64,000 bases of DNA. It comes from an uncultured Roseovarius sp. (GTDB taxonomy: Bacteria > Pseudomonadota > Alphaproteobacteria > Rhodobacterales > Rhodobacteraceae). Positions 43,440-53,433 of this stretch are shown one piece after another. Every line of letters begins with the position of its first letter. Position 1 is the first letter of the stretch. The DNA lies in the NCBI GenBank assembly GCA_947499555.1, contig CANMOU010000003.1:446979-510978 (forward strand). The letters are read 5' to 3'. The notes below the pieces were generated by a model. The model saw only the letters and a list, made by a program, of their open reading frames with translations. It was not told where the DNA came from and made no database searches. The translations under genes were made by a program, and so were the position numbers.

Positions 43440-45104
43440 ATGTCGGAAAAGACGCTGCATCGTCTGGCCTGGATCGTCGCCGCGATCTGTGTCGCGCCCA
43501 TCGTGGCCGCGGCGCTCTCGGCGTTTACTGGTGAGTTCAGCACCTGGCGCGACGTTCTGGCACCGGTTCTGCCGCGTTATGCGGTGACCACCCTTGTCCT
43601 GGTGGCGATTGTTGGTTTTTCCACCGCCGTCATCGGATCGGTGACCGCCTGGCTTGTCACGGTCTATCGCTTCCCCGGTCACAGATGGCTTGAGATCGCG
43701 CTGGCCCTGCCTTTGGCCTTTCCCGCCTATGTGATGGCCTATGCCTATACCCATATGCTGGATCACCCCGGTCCGGTGCAAACCCTCTTGCGCGATGTCA
43801 CAGGTTGGGGCCCGCGCGACTACTGGTTCCCTGAAATCCGAAGCCTGGGTGGCGCGGCGGTGATGCTGACCATCGTGCTTTACCCTTATGTCTATCTGTT
43901 GGCGCGCGCGTCGTTCCGGCAGCAATCCTCGAACGCCTTTCTCGTGGCCCGCACGCTGGGCCGCTCGCCTATCCGCGCCTTCTACCGCGTGGCTTTGCCT
44001 ATGGCGCGACCCGCAATCGCCGGAGGGGCCTTGCTGGCGGTGATGGAAACGATCGCGGATTACGGCACGGTCGCGTTTTTCAACGTGCAGACCTTCGCGA
44101 CCGGGATCTACCAGGCCTGGTTCGGTCTGGGCAATCGCGGCGCGGCGGCGCAACTGGCCTTGTGCCTGCTGTTCTTTGCGCTTCTGGTCGCCGGGCTCGA
44201 GCGCGCCCAACGCGGCAAGGTGCAGACGGCGGGGCGCGGTGCACGGTTCGAGACCATGGAAAAGCCCCATCTGACAGGCGCGGCAGGCTGGGTCGCCAGC
44301 CTGATTTGCCTTCTGCCGGTGCTTCTGGGCTTTATCATTCCCGTGATCATGTTGGGCAGCATGGCCATCGGCTCGGGTCAGAACCTGTTCTCGGCGCGCT
44401 ATATAGATTTCATGACCAATTCGGTCCTGGTGGCCAGCGTTGCCGCCGTGCTGACTGTGGCAGGCGCGATCCTGATCGGCTTTCACGCCCGCACCCGGCC
44501 AACGCGTCGCTCAAAGGCGCTCGTCGTGGGGGCGGGGCTGGGCTATGCCGTCCCGGGCGGGGTCATCGCTGTTGGGCTGATGGTACCCATGGCCGGGCTC
44601 GACAACATGATCGACCGGTTCATGGAGAACAATTTCGGCATCGACACAGGCTTGCTGATCACCGGCTCGATCTGGCTTATGGTGCTGGCCTATATGGTGC
44701 GTTTCATGGCCGCCGCCCTCAACGCCTATGACAGCGGAATGGCCACCGTGCCGGGCCATTTCGACGCCATCGGCCTGTCGCTTGGCCAGTCGGCCCCGAA
44801 ACTTCTGTGGCGGGTGCATCTGCCAGTCGCGCGCAGCTCGGTTCTGACCGCGCTCCTGATCGTCTTTGTCGACGTCATGAAGGAACTGCCCGCAACCCTG
44901 ATCCTGCATCCCTTCAATTTTCAGACCCTAGCGGTTCAGGCGCATAGGCTTGCCTCGGACGAGCGCCTCTCGCAGGCCGCCGTTCCTTCACTGGTGCTTG
45001 TGGCTTTCGGGCTTCTGCCCGTGATGATCCTGTGCCGCTCCATCGGCCGGGCCGAGCCGGGGCGCCGCGCCGCCAGACTGGGTCGTGCCCTCAAGGCTGG
45101 CTAG
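43440..45104 (+). CDS. Fe(III)-type ABC transporter permease (FbpB/AfuB-like)
   Basis: 554 aa, two fused permease halves with about 12 membrane spans. EAA-type loops lie at about 160-185 (VARTLGRSPIRAFYRVALPM) and 440-460 (FDAIGLSLGQSAPKLLWRVH). PATLILHPFNFQTLAVQAHR near the C terminus is typical of ferric iron permeases. It would carry Fe(III) across the inner membrane, but no binding-protein or ATPase gene is adjacent, so partners must be elsewhere. It follows the hemP operon, supporting an iron role. Confidence 0.85.
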   Translation: MSEKTLHRLAWIVAAICVAPIVAAALSAFTGEFSTWRDVLAPVLPRYAVTTLVLVAIVGFSTAVIGSVTAWLVTVYRFPGHRWLEIALALPLAFPAYVMAYAYTHMLDHPGPVQTLLRDVTGWGPRDYWFPEIRSLGGAAVMLTIVLYPYVYLLARASFRQQSSNAFLVARTLGRSPIRAFYRVALPMARPAIAGGALLAVMETIADYGTVAFFNVQTFATGIYQAWFGLGNRGAAAQLALCLLFFALLVAGLERAQRGKVQTAGRGARFETMEKPHLTGAAGWVASLICLLPVLLGFIIPVIMLGSMAIGSGQNLFSARYIDFMTNSVLVASVAAVLTVAGAILIGFHARTRPTRRSKALVVGAGLGYAVPGGVIAVGLMVPMAGLDNMIDRFMENNFGIDTGLLITGSIWLMVLAYMVRFMAAALNAYDSGMATVPGHFDAIGLSLGQSAPKLLWRVHLPVARSSVLTALLIVFVDVMKELPATLILHPFNFQTLAVQAHRLASDERLSQAAVPSLVLVAFGLLPVMILCRSIGRAEPGRRAARLGRALKAG

Positions 45105-45188
45105 GTGCAGAACGGCCATTCTCCCTTGTCCCGCCTGCGCCGTCCCCGTATCTAGGGCGCAACCGCAGCAACCGCCGGAGATAAAAGC

Positions 45189-48760: not shown

Positions 48761-49630
48761 ATGCGTCACAACCTGAACCTCAACTGGCTGCGAAGTTTTG
48801 AAGCGGCGGCTCGGCTGCTGAGCTTCACCGCGGCCAGCCGTGAAATTGGTTTGACCCAAGCCGCCGTCAGCCAACATATCAAGGCACTTGAAGCGCAGCT
48901 GGACGCCAAGCTGTTTCTGCGCCGCCCCAAGAGCCTGCAACTGACCGATGCGGGCAAAGCCTATCTGTCGACCGTGCGCGAAGCGCTGGACATGTTGGAA
49001 ATGTCGGCCACGGGTCTTTTTGGGCCGCGCCGAACGCGGACCATAACAGTACGCGCCTCGATGGCGTTCATCATGTGGCTGTCTGCGCGACTTGATGATT
49101 TTCTGATCAGCCATCCTGATACAGGTGTTAAGATGGTGACGTCGATCTGGAAAAGCCCTTCAGACGAACAGCCCGTCGATGTCGACATTATTCTTGCCTC
49201 GCAAGAGAATACGAGAACGGATCTGAAATTGCTCTCTTCAGAGATGCTTGTTCCCATCAGCAGCATCCGCCTGAGCCAGACGATAAAGTCACCCGATGAC
49301 CTTCTGTGCCAATCGCCGATTCACATCATGGGGTTTGACGATCACTGGGCACGGTACTTGTCCGCCTATGGGTTAAAGTTTGACAATTCAGTAGGGCGGT
49401 TGATCACCGACACCTCCACGGCTGCCATCGAAATGGTTGCAGCGGGGCTTGGCTATGCGGTTGTGATAGAGAGATTTGCCCGGCAGGCGATCCGGTCCGG
49501 ACAAAAAATCCGCATCGTTGGTGAACCAAAAGAGCTGGGTCAGGCGCATTATCTCGTTCAAACGGAACGGCGTGATGCCGTCCACACGACTGCCACAGAA
49601 TTTGAGGCCTGGCTAAGTCGCAAAGTTTAG
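48761..49630 (+). CDS. LysR-family transcriptional regulator (GcvA-like subgroup)
   Basis: 289 aa. The DNA-binding domain opens LNLNWLRSFEAAARLLSFTA and contains GLTQAAVSQHIKALEAQLDA and LFLRRPKSLQLTDAG. The effector domain follows. It resembles the regulator at 1985-2869 in subgroup and in genomic role: divergent from a two-gene oxygenase cassette. It probably activates the 2OG-oxygenase/hydrolase operon in response to an unknown metabolite. Confidence 0.87.
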   Translation: MRHNLNLNWLRSFEAAARLLSFTAASREIGLTQAAVSQHIKALEAQLDAKLFLRRPKSLQLTDAGKAYLSTVREALDMLEMSATGLFGPRRTRTITVRASMAFIMWLSARLDDFLISHPDTGVKMVTSIWKSPSDEQPVDVDIILASQENTRTDLKLLSSEMLVPISSIRLSQTIKSPDDLLCQSPIHIMGFDDHWARYLSAYGLKFDNSVGRLITDTSTAAIEMVAAGLGYAVVIERFARQAIRSGQKIRIVGEPKELGQAHYLVQTERRDAVHTTATEFEAWLSRKV

Positions 49631-49700
49631 AAACGCTTTGTGTTACAAACCCAGACTCGAGTTTTTCGAACCGGACAATCCGTTTTCGCAATCATATGTC

Positions 49701-49783
49701 CGCTTTGTCGGCAAAGCTGCGATTAGAGGAGCGTCTAGCCAACCAAAGTTATCAGATGACCGCTTTGAGCCCGAAGCGGACGC
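49701..49783 (+). repeat. Long intergenic repeat, copy A
   Basis: 83 bp, beginning CGCTTTGTCGGCAAAGCTGC and ending CCGCTTTGAGCCCGAAGCGG plus ACGC. It is a direct repeat of 52174-52255 with about 11 differences over its length. The right part forms the stem-loop GCTTTGAGCCCGAAGC. It marks the left edge of the AT-rich gene array. Confidence 0.85.
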
Positions 49784-49815
49784 ACAAAACACCTTAGGCC
49801 AGCTTAAGTGCCTGC

Positions 49816-50217
49816 TCACATTTTGTACTGAACTTCAATTTTGGTCAGCAATGGAAATGCCGGCCAAGGTTCGAAGGTATCATCGACATGCTTTGCGTGA
49901 AAAACTGCTGCTAGTTTTAGAAAGAAGCAAAACTGATCTAGTTTTATCCACGACTTACTGGCTGATCCATCGAAGTTACTTACAGCAACCAGAAGGCTGC
50001 CATTGTATCGTCCTTCATCAATTAAGTCTTCAGCAGGCGTATGAATGAAGTGGCTTTCATAGTACTGGAAGAACCTTCCCTCGCACATTGCATCAAAAAA
50101 CGCCCTGAACTGGTCTGGCTCAAAAACAATCTGACTTAGAAAATCGGCAAAAAGTGTGTCATCTCGTTCTCGAACTTCAGGAAAGATAGATTGAATTACT
50201 GCCCATTGCTCTTTCAT
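49816..50217 (-). CDS. Hypothetical protein in the AT-rich array
   Basis: 133 aa, soluble, acidic to neutral; motifs seen are FPEVRERDDTLFADFLSQIV and FDAMCEGRFFQYYESHFIHT. I do not recognise a family. I start at ATG 50217 (MKEQWAVIQS); the frame continues to 50316 but that extension overlaps the repeat copy at about 50302-50330. Codon use is more AT-rich than the LysR gene beside it. By size and position it could be an immunity-type protein, but no motif proves that. Confidence 0.55.
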   Translation of the reverse strand: MKEQWAVIQSIFPEVRERDDTLFADFLSQIVFEPDQFRAFFDAMCEGRFFQYYESHFIHTPAEDLIDEGRYNGSLLVAVSNFDGSASKSWIKLDQFCFFLKLAAVFHAKHVDDTFEPWPAFPLLTKIEVQYKM

Positions 50218-50301
50218 GTTTCTGCTCACCCAATGCTGGCGTTTCCGTCGAAGTAAACTCCACCTCGACATCAGTGCAAGTTCATAGGAGATGCGCAAGG
50301 G

Positions 50302-50330
50302 CCGCTTCGTCCGCACAGCCGACCTTCACG
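50302..50330 (+). repeat. Partial intergenic repeat, copy B' (left half only)
   Basis: CCGCTTCGTCCGCACAGCCG followed by ACCTTC corresponds to the left half of the long repeat (GCTTTGTCCGCATAGCTGCC). It separates the hypothetical gene from the DUF600-like gene. The right half is not apparent. Confidence 0.55.
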
Positions 50331-50383
50331 CTTAAAAAGCTGCAATTTTGTCCAAGGAAAATTGTCGGATGTCAGCAAGGCAA

Positions 50384-50737
50384 CTAGCTTGAATTGGGCT
50401 GCGCACCCTCGGCGTAGTCAAACTTTGTAGTAACGGTACCATCTTGATTTATCTTAAGCTTCAAACCAGTCCATTCTCCTCCTGTGTGATCCTTCATCAT
50501 ACTATGTAACTTGGGCACCACTTCATCTAAAATTTGTCGGTCCGGATACTTTAGAAGAACGTGTTTTGTTTCACCGTTAGCGAAAAAAGATGCGTTGCTT
50601 TGTATTGCGGCTCCACCGCCATCGAAACGTCTGTACGCGATCACACACTCTGCAGTCACGAAGTCGTCGTCAACGCTGCAGAGCAGTAAGTCATAAATCT
50701 TATCTAATGCTTCACGCTGTCCGTCTATCTGGTTCAT
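50384..50737 (-). CDS. YezG/DUF600-like immunity protein
   Basis: 117 aa. The layout (N-terminal helix with IYDLLLCSVDDD, central strands, then EWTGLKLKINQDGTVTTKFD ending in YAEG) resembles the YezG/DUF600 family of immunity proteins that neutralise polymorphic toxins. No toxin gene is adjacent, so this would be an orphan immunity gene. It is AT-richer than the core genes and bounded by repeat copies on both sides. The family assignment is from pattern memory and needs a profile search. Confidence 0.6.
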   Translation of the reverse strand: MNQIDGQREALDKIYDLLLCSVDDDFVTAECVIAYRRFDGGGAAIQSNASFFANGETKHVLLKYPDRQILDEVVPKLHSMMKDHTGGEWTGLKLKINQDGTVTTKFDYAEGAQPNSS

Positions 50738-50835
50738 ATGCCTCCACCTGCCTCGGTTCCATCATCGCCGCACCTCCACTCTCAAATCAAGTGAATCAGC
50801 GGCAGACCAACCAATCAATCGACGTTTCAAAAGTA

Positions 50836-50927
50836 TCTCCGCACAGCCGCCATTAGTATCCATTTTTTTTGGCATTTTAGATCGACTGAACCGTCAGATG
50901 TCCGCTCCGAGCCCAAAGCGGACATCT
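50836..50927 (+). repeat. Intergenic repeat, copy C, with an 11-bp hairpin
   Basis: The left half CTCCGCACAGCCGCCATTAG is at 50837-50856. The right half is a perfect 11-bp stem, AGATGTCCGCT (50896-50906) with AGCGGACATCT (50917-50927), around the loop CCGAGCCCAA. The middle differs from copies A and D. The remainder of the 311-bp gap 50738-51048 shows only a short AT-rich promoter-like stretch before the HEAT-like gene. Confidence 0.75.
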
Positions 50928-51048
50928 AATTCGATTTGGCAGATTCCTTGTTGGCCGCTTAGTCGGGGGTCTTGTCTGAGGTGGTTTTGATCGCAGTATT
51001 TAGTATCAAACAAATTGACGTGTTTTAATCTTGGAGACGGTTCTGGCG

Positions 51049-52128
51049 ATGGAACATGAATACGGTGAGCCAACGTTCTTTTTTCTCCAGCCTGAAGACG
51101 ATCCTCTAGATTGCATTGCGGCCCATTTAAAAGTCTTGTTCCGAAACGCGGTGGAGGCTTCGCACCGACCTACTAGTAAACGTTTTGCAGAATATGTCAT
51201 TTCGCGCTTTCCGAAAGAAATAGAGTTCAAGTTGATGGACGAGCGAAACAGTGTTGGGATCGCACTAGGGCATGTTAGCTTGGCCAATGTCTCAACTGTT
51301 GTTCGCAAGCTTGGAGATATTGTCGACACGACTGGAGAAATGACAAAGTTTGGCTTCTCTGAACGCGACATTAAGTACGTCTGCGATAAGGACGCGATGG
51401 CAGCGTTAGCGTTCGCTACATCTCGATCCGGCTACATCCGAGAACTAGGCCTCTCACGCATCCAATTTTTGGGTCCTGAAATTGGGTTTGCAATCATTGT
51501 TCTAAGGCTCAACGACTGGGTGCCGGAGGTGCGTGCAGCCGCAGTCAAAGCTATAAAAAGACTTACTAAAAAAGACCGAGGGCCACTCAAGCAACTAGCA
51601 TTCATGATTGCCGGTTCAATTAGCCTGCTTATTGACGAACGGCGATTGAGCCGAATGTCAAATAGCGAAAAGAATGTCGTTACGTCCCTTGTTAATTACC
51701 CAAATGTAAAAGAAGCGATCCGTTGGATACTCGTCAATGGTGAATCAGATCGTGCAGCAAATCTAAACCTTAACGCTGTAATCCAAAGTGGACTCTACGA
51801 TGAGGTGCTTCCCGAAGTTGCGATGAAAGCAAGGTGCTCCCATCGTCGAATAATTGCGACTCGCGCGATCTTAGAGGGAAAACATGTCTGGAAGTATGAG
51901 CGAGTTGTCCGCGTACCAGAAATAGCGCTGAGGGATTATCGTTCTCAGATTGTCAGAAGCGCATTAGAAGACAGGTCTGCCAACGTTGCTCTCGTTGCAA
52001 TATGCTATCTTATTGAATCCAACGAGTTGGAGCACTTGGATGAGCACACAATTGGCTTGTTAAAAGAGCGGCGAGAAAAATCACTCCAAAGAAAAACTAC
52101 TCTGTTGCTGGACATGATTGGCAAGTAA
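51049..52128 (+). CDS. HEAT-like helical repeat protein, unknown
   Basis: 359 aa, cytoplasmic, almost entirely alpha-helical. WVPEVRAAAVKAIKRLTKKD (about 161-180) and a later RSANVALVAICYLIESNELE have HEAT-repeat character. No catalytic motif is seen. It is strongly AT-rich compared with the core genes. An upstream TTG at 51031 would add six residues; ATG 51049 is preferred. It sits alone between repeat copies C and D. HEAT-like proteins occur in DNA repair, defence and scaffolding, so the role is open. Confidence 0.6.
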   Translation: MEHEYGEPTFFFLQPEDDPLDCIAAHLKVLFRNAVEASHRPTSKRFAEYVISRFPKEIEFKLMDERNSVGIALGHVSLANVSTVVRKLGDIVDTTGEMTKFGFSERDIKYVCDKDAMAALAFATSRSGYIRELGLSRIQFLGPEIGFAIIVLRLNDWVPEVRAAAVKAIKRLTKKDRGPLKQLAFMIAGSISLLIDERRLSRMSNSEKNVVTSLVNYPNVKEAIRWILVNGESDRAANLNLNAVIQSGLYDEVLPEVAMKARCSHRRIIATRAILEGKHVWKYERVVRVPEIALRDYRSQIVRSALEDRSANVALVAICYLIESNELEHLDEHTIGLLKERREKSLQRKTTLLLDMIGK

Positions 52129-52173
52129 GCAAAAAAGACTAGGGCGATTATCGATGCGCAGAAGCTCAACGTC

Positions 52174-52255
52174 AGCTTTGTCCGCATAGCTGCCATTAGA
52201 GGAGCGTTTGACCAACCAAAGTTATCAGTTGACCGCTTGGAGCCCAAAGCGACGC
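52174..52255 (+). repeat. Long intergenic repeat, copy D
   Basis: 82 bp, beginning AGCTTTGTCCGCATAGCTGC and containing AACCAAAGTTATCAG, identical to copy A at that stretch. It is in the same orientation as copy A and 2,473 bp downstream of it. It marks the right edge of the AT-rich array. Confidence 0.85.
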
Positions 52256-52632
52256 CCCTCGCGCGGAATCAAGGCCGAAGGCCGCCGCGCGATCGCCAGA
52301 CCGCCCCCCGGGCTGGCGATTGGTCGACCCAAGCGCTTAGATCAACCAATTCGCAGACTTGGCTGACATAAAGTGATCTGAACAAATGACGGATCGCCAC
52401 CCCGCGGTCTGGCCATCACGCGGCTTCTCACAGCAACTCAGGAACGTCCGCTAAGTCCCGCATTGCAGACATTGCTCGTCATAACCCATCGCCTCACTGA
52501 AGCTGACGCCGCTTCGATCCTGGAATCGCCCTTGGCCCGGGTTGGGAAGATCAAGCGCATTCCTTAACAGGCTCCAAATGTGCTGCGCGCTCTGTTCACA
52601 CATGGCACCTCAAGGCGTCATGCCGACCCCGC
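52256..52632. other. GC-rich intergenic stretch with hairpins, no gene seen
   Basis: Between copy D and the tandem repeat there is no convincing reading frame. Two hairpins stand out: CGCGCGG...CCGCGCG (about 52259-52294) and ATCGCCAG...CTGGCGAT (about 52293-52320). A sequence resembling a third intergenic repeat (GTCCCGCATTGCAGACATTG) is at about 52455-52475. It could be a decayed element. Confidence 0.45.
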
Positions 52633-52676
52633 ACCGACGCAATACCGACGTAATACCGACGTGATACCGACGTCGG
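52633..52676 (+). repeat. Four-copy 11-bp tandem repeat downstream of the GntR gene
   Basis: Units ACCGACGCAAT, ACCGACGTAAT, ACCGACGTGAT and ACCGACGTCGG follow each other without gaps. The last contains the palindrome CCGACGTCGG. It lies about 30 bp past the end of the GntR gene, so it could affect 3' mRNA structure or be a slippage product. Confidence 0.8.
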
Positions 52677-52704
52677 GATTCCAGCAAAATAAGGACGTTA
52701 ACCT

Positions 52705-53433
52705 TTAGCTGTCCTGCAGGAGCAGTTTCTGCTCTTCCACCAGGTGCAGTTTGATGAACTCCACCGCTTGCGCGACGTCTCGCGAGGCGATGGCATTGTA
52801 GAGCGTGTTGTAGCGTTTCTGGTAGTCCTGCACCCGTTTCGGCGTCAGGCTGCGACGACGCAGTTCTGTGCGAAAACTCTGGCGATAGGTCTCGACCGCC
52901 AGCCGGTAGCACGACGCCAGAAGCGCATTGCCCGTGCCTTCGGCAATCTGGATATAAAGCTTTTGTTCCAACGTGATAAAGGCATCCACATCGGTGGTAA
53001 TGGCCTCGATCTGTGACAGCGTCTTGGCCATGTCCGCCACCATCCGGGGCGTCATATTGACCACCGCCAGCCTGACGATCTCGGGTTCCAGTATGCCGCG
53101 CACCACAAGATGATCGAGCGGGCTTGTCTCGTCGGCCACGCTGTCCGGTGTCATCGCGGTGCGCGGTGTGGTTCTATAGGTGACAAAACTGCCGGACCCC
53201 GCCCGCCGCAGGATCACCTTCTGCCCTTCCAGAACATCCAGCGCCTCGCGCACCGTGTTGCGCGCCACCCCAAGTTCCGCCGCCAGTGTCCGCTCGGAGG
53301 GCAGACGTGTATCCCTCGGATATTCCTCAGCTTTTATGCGGGCGAAAAGCGTATCTACGACGATCTGCACCGTCGCTCCGATCGAGCCGGGAATGACAAT
53401 TCCAGGGCCGTTTTGCTTCAAAGAGGCGCTCAT
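52705..53433 (-). CDS. GntR-family regulator (FadR/FCD subfamily)
   Basis: 242 aa. The winged helix-turn-helix is at about 25-90 (DTRLPSERTLAAELGVARNT, then VREALDVLEGQKVI and RRAGSGSFV). The FCD-type helical effector domain follows, with the metal-ligand region around HLVEEQ. It is divergent from the thioesterase-dpp operon and is expected to repress it and itself through the 10-bp dyad at 53442-53476. The inducer is unknown. Confidence 0.9.
   Translation of the reverse strand: MSASLKQNGPGIVIPGSIGATVQIVVDTLFARIKAEEYPRDTRLPSERTLAAELGVARNTVREALDVLEGQKVILRRAGSGSFVTYRTTPRTAMTPDSVADETSPLDHLVVRGILEPEIVRLAVVNMTPRMVADMAKTLSQIEAITTDVDAFITLEQKLYIQIAEGTGNALLASCYRLAVETYRQSFRTELRRRSLTPKRVQDYQKRYNTLYNAIASRDVAQAVEFIKLHLVEEQKLLLQDS

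Follow-up and report, generated by a model that had tools for sequence, protein, structure and literature searches.

The stretch analysed here, hereafter the window, comprises 64,000 nucleotides of an uncultured Roseovarius sp. (GCA_947499555.1, contig CANMOU010000003.1, positions 446,979 to 510,978). An initial annotation made from its letters alone had described four same-orientation copies of one repeat alternating with three unrelated genes. This arrangement was recovered: from 49696 to 52252, four same-strand copies of the repeat, here called R, alternate with three low-GC single genes. R is a short, dispersed, non-coding and partly palindromic sequence of 75-90 bp (about 85 bp), running from GGGCTC to GCGGAC. 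It was modelled by a sequence profile, R1, built from nine copies, three of them from the window. The features of the array and its GntR-side extension are as follows; carets mark the edges at which sequences switch.

49696..49784, minus strand: R copy 1, the array end on the LysR side (R1 77.3 bits)
49819..50316, minus strand: putative cassette 1, an orphan 133-aa protein, frame open to 166 aa, low G+C
50297..50375, minus strand: R copy 2, 5' part diverged (R1 32 bits, model positions 25-92 only)
50387..50737, minus strand: putative cassette 2, a 117-aa protein, weakly YezG-like, below the Pfam cut-off
50744..50837, minus strand: end of a DDE transposon, abutting R copy 3 at GCGGA
50833..50926 as model match (R proper from 50838), minus strand: R copy 3, 3' end cut by the transposon end (R1 53.5 bits)
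51049..52128, plus strand: putative cassette 3, a HEAT-like protein of 359 aa (365 aa from 51031), below the Pfam cut-off
52168..52252, minus strand: R copy 4 (R1 79.2 bits)
52253..52442, minus strand: unit B, a non-coding repeat unit between R sites; a 97% identical unit lies between R sites at C1:89 kb of the same genome
about 52443..52465, minus strand: a lone R 3' half-site (CAATGCGGGAC^TTAGCGGACGTT), the array end on the GntR side, read by eye; homology with L029 4935-5170

The outer copies, 1 and 4, are 87-88% identical over 81-86 bp, as had been estimated. The three genes lie on different strands (minus, minus, plus) and are AT-rich, again as first described: G+C is 0.44-0.47 in the gaps of the array against 0.587 for the whole window, and values of at most 0.47 occur in 1.9% of 512-bp windows. 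Among the protein names first proposed, the 133-aa hypothetical stands, with no Pfam family over the cut-off; the other two proved weak, the 117-aa protein reaching 14.4 bits as YezG-like (cut-off 21.7) and the 365-aa protein 15.6 bits as HEAT (cut-off 23.5). The 133-aa protein has no match among plasmid records, the 117-aa protein has two Acinetobacter plasmid matches at 27%, and the 359-aa HEAT-like protein has partial relatives in scattered bacteria at 23-49%. Homology of the three proteins was rejected as a sign of movement, the relatives being too distant or none. PADLOC gave no defence match for them or for the small recombinase described below.

A blastn search of the own genome with a single R copy found 12 places at E ≤ 1, and R1 gave 46 matches at E ≤ 10. 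Across the genus, 126 R1 matches at E ≤ 0.01 are spread over 25 of 60 genomes, and across the family (one genome per genus, the own included) 19 of 198 genomes have matches at E ≤ 1e-4. Mean column identity across the nine copies behind R1 is 62%; because the family is too diverged for single-sequence searches, blastn of one R copy against plasmid records gave no match. An Rfam scan of 49500-52700 gave none either. Detailed comparisons were made among four genomes of different species, namely G000 (the own genome) and the related G032, G087 and G008, with G027, G014 and G031 as further genomes; L-numbers denote loci. Aligned flanks are 94-97% identical in many G087/G008 pairs, about 90-93% between G032 and either of these, and about 75-87% in most pairs with the own genome.

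Among the four genomes, neighbouring R copies agree in strand in 4/4 cases at 0-350 bp, 22/23 at 350-2000 bp, 12/14 at 2-20 kb and 24/51 beyond 20 kb. For these counts eight R1 matches were dropped (four palindrome overlaps with a stronger opposite-strand match, and four weak own-genome matches with E of 0.97-4.7), and two own matches were kept despite E-values of 1.5 and 6.9. Restoring the four weak matches gives 5/6, 23/23, 13/15 and 23/52 for the same distance classes, and removing the two weak kept ones leaves 21/22 at 350-2000 bp. At E ≤ 0.01 in the 60 genomes the counts are 3/3 (150-350 bp), 11/12 (350-2000 bp), 5/8 (2-20 kb) and 20/39 (beyond 20 kb). Since strand agreement is high among near neighbours and about half beyond 20 kb, R forms short same-direction arrays. 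Others of this kind are a four-repeat array in G027 (L113) and those at C1:88 kb, C1:428 kb and C9 of the own genome.

The analysis of what lies between R copies took in 26 same-strand gaps (300-2000 bp): 22 from the four genomes, three from the G027 array and one from G014 (these last four were chosen). It used mechanical open frames without gene calls. Every gap holds an open frame of 105-365 aa covering 0.43-0.95 of its length, and one 1.8-kb gap in G032 has at least two. The gaps have a G+C of 0.42-0.57 (mean 0.48), which in all but one of the 26 is lower than in the locus around them; the exception is part of an insertion sequence. In 10 gaps the frame has the direction of R, in 16 the opposite one. 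Pfam was applied to 22 of the gap proteins: seven exceed a cut-off (GST, PhyH, B12-binding, HAD, DUF695/RraB, methyltransferase and Barstar) and 15 are without family. The Barstar-like inhibitor is encoded in the G027 array (L113 4359-4793); because of this protein and the weakly YezG-like one in the window, orphan immunity genes may be among the cargo.

Between the same two R sites, different genomes carry different genes. One such place is flanked by an SDR gene and a DUF502-like gene: it holds a 168-aa frame on the minus strand in the own genome and an unrelated 133-aa frame on the plus strand in G032. The flanks there align at 87% (1.0 kb) and 79% (2.3 kb), and the switches lie at GCGGAC^ and ^GGGCTC. 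The SDR and DUF502-like genes are nearly directly joined in G031, and no R was seen there by eye. Conversely, the same unit occurs at different places. A unit like the G032 133-aa one lies at an unrelated place in G087 (515 bp, 75%), a 653-bp unit is common to C1:267 kb of the own genome and 951.7 kb of G032 at 93%, and a 589-bp unit is common to G032 and G087 at 97.8%, the last two pairs of loci showing no further alignment. Parts of R stand at the ends of these three units, some recognised by eye without an R1 score. As the 589-bp unit has a GGGCTC-type site at each end, GCGGAC is not the sole left edge. At three further sites G087 and G008 share both flanks (94-96%), with about 0.45 kb between them in G087 and 8.6, 10.8 and 13.8 kb, each of several genes, in G008. 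These multi-gene segments have the edges of single-gene cassettes (L240 4809-13448, L243 4137-14983 and L270 4385-18185); the small recombinase stands at the right edge of one of them, and a second contains a broken relative.

At such places left flanks match up to ...TGCGGAC^ and diverge beyond, and right flanks start matching at ^GGGCTC. This was measured in 12 left and 9 right pairs picked for lying at R (about 8 left and 9 right sites), which are 19 of the 23 breakpoints at R reported below and two from the SDR/DUF502 site; L107/L224, L212/L232, L236/L155 and L236/L262 were left out. Ten left and eight right pairs could be anchored, so that the ranges exclude L227/L243 and L238/L247 (wrong GCGGAC anchor) and L225/L228 (no anchor). 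In the left pairs the final 60 nt ahead of the edge show an identity of 0.68-0.97, which drops to 0.22-0.40 from +15 to +60; in the right pairs it is 0.18-0.36 upstream of -15 and rises to 0.80-1.0 in the first 20 nt. R itself goes with the left flank at some sites and with the right flank at others. Alignments of at least 800 bp between different genomes, at loci selected for R, gave 65 breakpoints. Of these, 23 fall no more than 12 bp from R in one genome or both, and 14 do so in both; random placement gives 1.31 and 0.01.

The compared loci show that units differ between genomes and places and switch at points on the R edges, and that most are single AT-rich open frames, with multi-gene segments of 9-14 kb bounded alike. 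Exchange at R edges is well supported by this comparison, and the cassette-like island first proposed is borne out by relatives that carry other genes between the same R sites, by the same unit between other R sites and by the switches at R. It had also been suggested to search the genome and its relatives for R and to list what lies between copies; this search finds R unevenly scattered and linked to variable genes, and the opposite pattern, an even scatter with no link to variable genes, is absent. That R is an ordinary intergenic repeat of the repetitive extragenic palindromic (REP) kind, unlinked to gene turnover, would agree with its palindromic parts and with the finding that two species have an R site in equivalent positions (L117/L120). 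This is very unlikely, and for the four-genome set contradicted, given strand agreement limited to near neighbours, breakpoints at R and one unit at new places.

At the window site itself the GntR side is kept, from 52678, at 77-79% in G008, G087 and G032, and the left conserved block ends at 45082-45108 in the same three genomes, with an R site within about 80 bp of that end in G087 and G008. Of everything that the own genome has between these blocks, including the array, blastn matches unit B in G087 and nothing else in the three genomes, so that the array lies in a variable stretch. In the comparison of this locus among relatives that had been called for, no base-exact switch for the window array itself could be read against G008, G087 and G032. 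In G014 the LysR side is 72% conserved up to 49572, and the locus matching that side has no R1 match at E ≤ 0.001. Between 45108 and 52623 the own genome also carries ybaB and recR (named by eye) and other genes, between blocks that flank other content in G008, G087 and G032. On the GntR side the lone half-site and unit B extend the array beyond R copy 4. Unit B is a second dispersed repeat, GC-rich and of about 170 bp (52253-52425), which often lies beside R in the own genome and relatives and was found on Salipiger and Pseudosulfitobacter plasmids. Tandem ACCGACGTAATACCGACGT repeats follow at 52624-52706, then a GTTAACC stretch before GntR; a similar stretch occurs in own C4, G014 and G087. 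The DDE transposon next to R copy 3 is of the DUF772/DDE_Tnp_1_6 type, and a like joint to an R-like end was read by eye on the Roseovarius pelagicus plasmid NZ_CP106739.1 (L027 3001-3110). Because its end is joined to R in the one place and to an R-like end in the other, this insertion sequence may target R.

A candidate enzyme for the exchange is a tyrosine recombinase of 210 aa, which matches PF00589 at 62.4 bits over residues 45-194. As the domain starts at residue 45, there is little room for the usual N-terminal domain. Its motifs KLRGCDL, HSMRR, LLGH and the Y of QYLG were read, which we take to be the catalytic R, H, R, H and Y of tyrosine recombinases. By sequence its nearest structures are XerC-like, XerA and XerD; models for XerA, XerC, XerD and fim-type invertases match it below their cut-offs, and no NCBIfam model matches it above. 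The own genome has an open copy at C2:36775-37404, an insert in G008 has a 224-aa tyrosine recombinase at its right edge beside the site, a relative lies 0.84 kb from R in G027, and a fragment lies 42 bp from an R match in the own genome. The gene occurs in 28 of the 60 genus genomes, namely in 12 of the 14 with at least three R matches and in 16 of the other 46 (Fisher p 0.0015, Spearman 0.47, uncorrected for kinship). The four genomes together hold 10 genes or fragments of the recombinase; 4 of them have an R match no more than 500 bp away, where 0.11 is expected.

The recombinase gene appears to be carried in a module with edges like those of R. In alignments to L278, likeness begins 103-104 bp before the start codon, at GGGCTC, in 7 of 12 related loci, and stops 32-47 bp past the stop codon in 9 of 12, in ...GGCCC and a motif like the left end of a cassette. 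Of 15 readable recombinase loci, 11 (10 from the genus and one on a Phaeobacter inhibens plasmid) have GGGCTC at -101 to -105, against a background of 1.2% of windows. This count covered 17 loci, the closest group and three plasmids, two of them without a readable frame; groups at 66% and 44% identity lie outside it, and most of the 66% group have no GGGCTC at that distance. Since the loci that bear GGGCTC are homologous, it is the shared boundary that matters and not the count alone. Just before the site, CAGCAT directly precedes GGGCTC in 5 of the 11 modules, and the 40 nt ahead of the site contain GCAGCA or GCAGAA in 21 of 95 R-like sites, compared with 40 of 882 other GGGCTC. From these alike edges (the GGGCTC start and the motif before the site) the module seems to occupy the place of R. 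Relatives of the recombinase (E ≤ 1e-20) were also found in 431 plasmid records from many Proteobacteria, including Escherichia, Klebsiella, Pantoea and Sinorhizobium; most annotated ones, among the matches listed, are named just tyrosine-type recombinase or integrase, and module edges were looked at in three Rhodobacterales records.

The same likeness admits a further explanation, in which R represents a non-autonomous miniature of the small-recombinase element, both inserting at a fixed target, and the genes are mere DNA between insertions. R and the module are similar at the 5' end, GGGCTCNNNGCNGNCNTC, and the CAGCAT found before GGGCTC in five modules fits a fixed target; the 3' ends are only partly alike. 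Left unexplained are the one unit with both its ends at R in unrelated places and the different genes between the same two sites. We regard this explanation as improbable, though it may be true in addition to the cassette reading.

Taken together, we think it probable that the window array is a row of mobile gene cassettes exchanged site-specifically by the small tyrosine recombinase. A cassette would be bounded by two recombination sites, of which the left usually ends in ...TGCGGAC^ (in at least one unit, in another GGGCTC^). It would begin after the left site with about RAAGCNGNCATT, and the right site would begin with ^GGGCTCAAAGC. R would link successive cassettes head to tail in one direction, irrespective of gene strand. 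Exchange would proceed by site-specific recombination through a small enzyme of the Xer/FimB sort, its gene forming part of a module that shares the left edge ^GGGCTC and has a right edge of similar kind. The small recombinase is probably the enzyme that acts at R, to judge from its association and edges, and transformation, gene transfer agents or plasmids could supply the incoming DNA.

Several observations weigh against this cassette reading. Six of the ten recombinase genes or fragments in the four genomes lie far from every R match, and in all four near cases the R match is opposite in strand to the recombinase gene. At the threshold used, 9 of the 25 R-positive genomes have no recombinase, and 12 of the 28 recombinase-positive genomes have no R match. 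Many half-sites score weakly (E up to 1, a few higher). L217 compared with L226 and L240 shows identity of only 0.68-0.70 before GCGGAC in a flank of 92%, so the switch may lie further back, and in L107/L224 the sequence is shared to the right of GCGGAC but the R on its left is not. The breakpoint counts cover loci chosen for R and are silent on the genome-wide share of breakpoints at R. An empty joint, with GCGGAC directly on GGGCTC, occurs nowhere in the DNA examined, and the centres of the two R edges differ (CGGA and GGCT); a classical tyrosine recombinase should poorly tolerate such unlike centres. Cassette movement, finally, is deduced here from sequence comparison.

Some of these points favour the main rival, in which R is simply a repeat present at many places, and DNA brought in by transformation or gene transfer agents replaces the genes between its copies through ordinary homologous recombination, no dedicated enzyme being involved. 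The initial annotation had raised this possibility, of which the first half, a common repeat, agrees with the number and dispersal of R copies. An enzyme-free process would also fit the exchanges in which R remains with its flank, the nine R-positive genomes without a recombinase match and the two left junctions that may switch ahead of the edge. It is made less likely by the 18 anchored junctions at R edges (those two unclear), the others switching there and not at varied inner points, by the same left edge on the recombinase module, and by the divergence of R: 62% identity over 85 bp is a poor substrate for RecA. We consider this rival rather unlikely.

A broader proposal is that the Rhodobacterales have a second, integron-independent cassette system, in which a recombinase of about 210 aa, carried in an edge-sharing module, captures and shuffles single genes and complete operons, at many places on the chromosome, through sites of about GSGSWC^RAAGCNGNCATYCG; we hold the case for and against it to be evenly balanced. 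Because plasmids of many Proteobacteria carry relatives of the recombinase, systems of this sort may, were the proposal true, be widespread but have escaped annotation. The most familiar collectors of foreign single-gene cassettes in bacteria are integrons, and dif modules are a plasmid variant. Another cassette system would explain part of the turnover of orphan genes in this marine group, and would bound operons as well. The R edges would give a sequence handle for finding such genes, tools based on attC boxes would miss R sites, and the origin of integron-like capture would become testable with a much smaller enzyme. The literature search found no account of the R repeat or of a non-integron cassette system in Rhodobacterales, with most subscription journals outside its scope; the word integron occurs 0 times in the main text of a paper on Sulfitobacter mobile elements (PMC13386836).

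Among known systems the closest in layout are integrons and clusters of attC sites lacking integron-integrases (CALIN). Like these, R arrays consist of head-to-tail, mostly single-gene units with a short site at every joint, carry low-GC orphan genes and come with a tyrosine recombinase, so that a diverged CALIN with degenerate attC might be considered. The attC consensus boxes are RYYYAAC ... GTTRRRY. As the initial annotation had stated, R lacks this structure: among the 34 R copies that reach 75 nt, 0 have both boxes in the outer 25 nt on either strand (no attC covariance model was run). IntI (TIGR02249) exceeds its cut-off in 0 of 8 genomes. The integron reading was rejected on boxes, integrase and gene direction, and as R also stays with either flank, we find a diverged CALIN extremely unlikely. 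R arrays further differ from integrons in occurring at several genome places and in having a much shorter recombinase with an edge-sharing gene module. R does contain dyads, whose cells are paired in 75% against 29-48% with the partners slid. Four of five covariation measures are not above shuffles (pairing was reached by 390/500) and one is (9/500). A folded, hairpin-like single-strand site as in attC is not established and not claimed for R, and these four measures count against the cassette reading as well.

The dif (pdif) modules of Acinetobacter plasmids likewise consist of genes flanked by short sites, and are reported to move by Xer-type tyrosine recombination. R arrays differ in that neighbouring sites have nearly all one direction, the arrays studied lie on large contigs and the candidate recombinase is not XerC or XerD; they were set apart without a comparison of dif sequences. 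In minimal mobile elements different genes lie between the same conserved genes and are exchanged through homology of the flanking genes. The SDR/DUF502 site, in the own genome and G032, resembles these elements in the first of these two traits. R sites differ from them in switching at a many-site repeat outside genes, as at that same site, and in that one unit occurs at unrelated places. Tyrosine recombinase classes are treated in PMC8138268. The candidate enzyme resembles the short tyrosine recombinases (relatives of XerA, XerC and XerD, and FimB-like invertases) in its PF00589 domain and sub-cut-off model matches, and differs from them in that no NCBIfam model exceeds its cut-off. With miniature inverted-repeat transposable elements and REP sequences, finally, R has in common that it is short, dispersed, partly palindromic and non-coding; unlike them, it bounds exchanged genes and keeps to the same strand within clusters.

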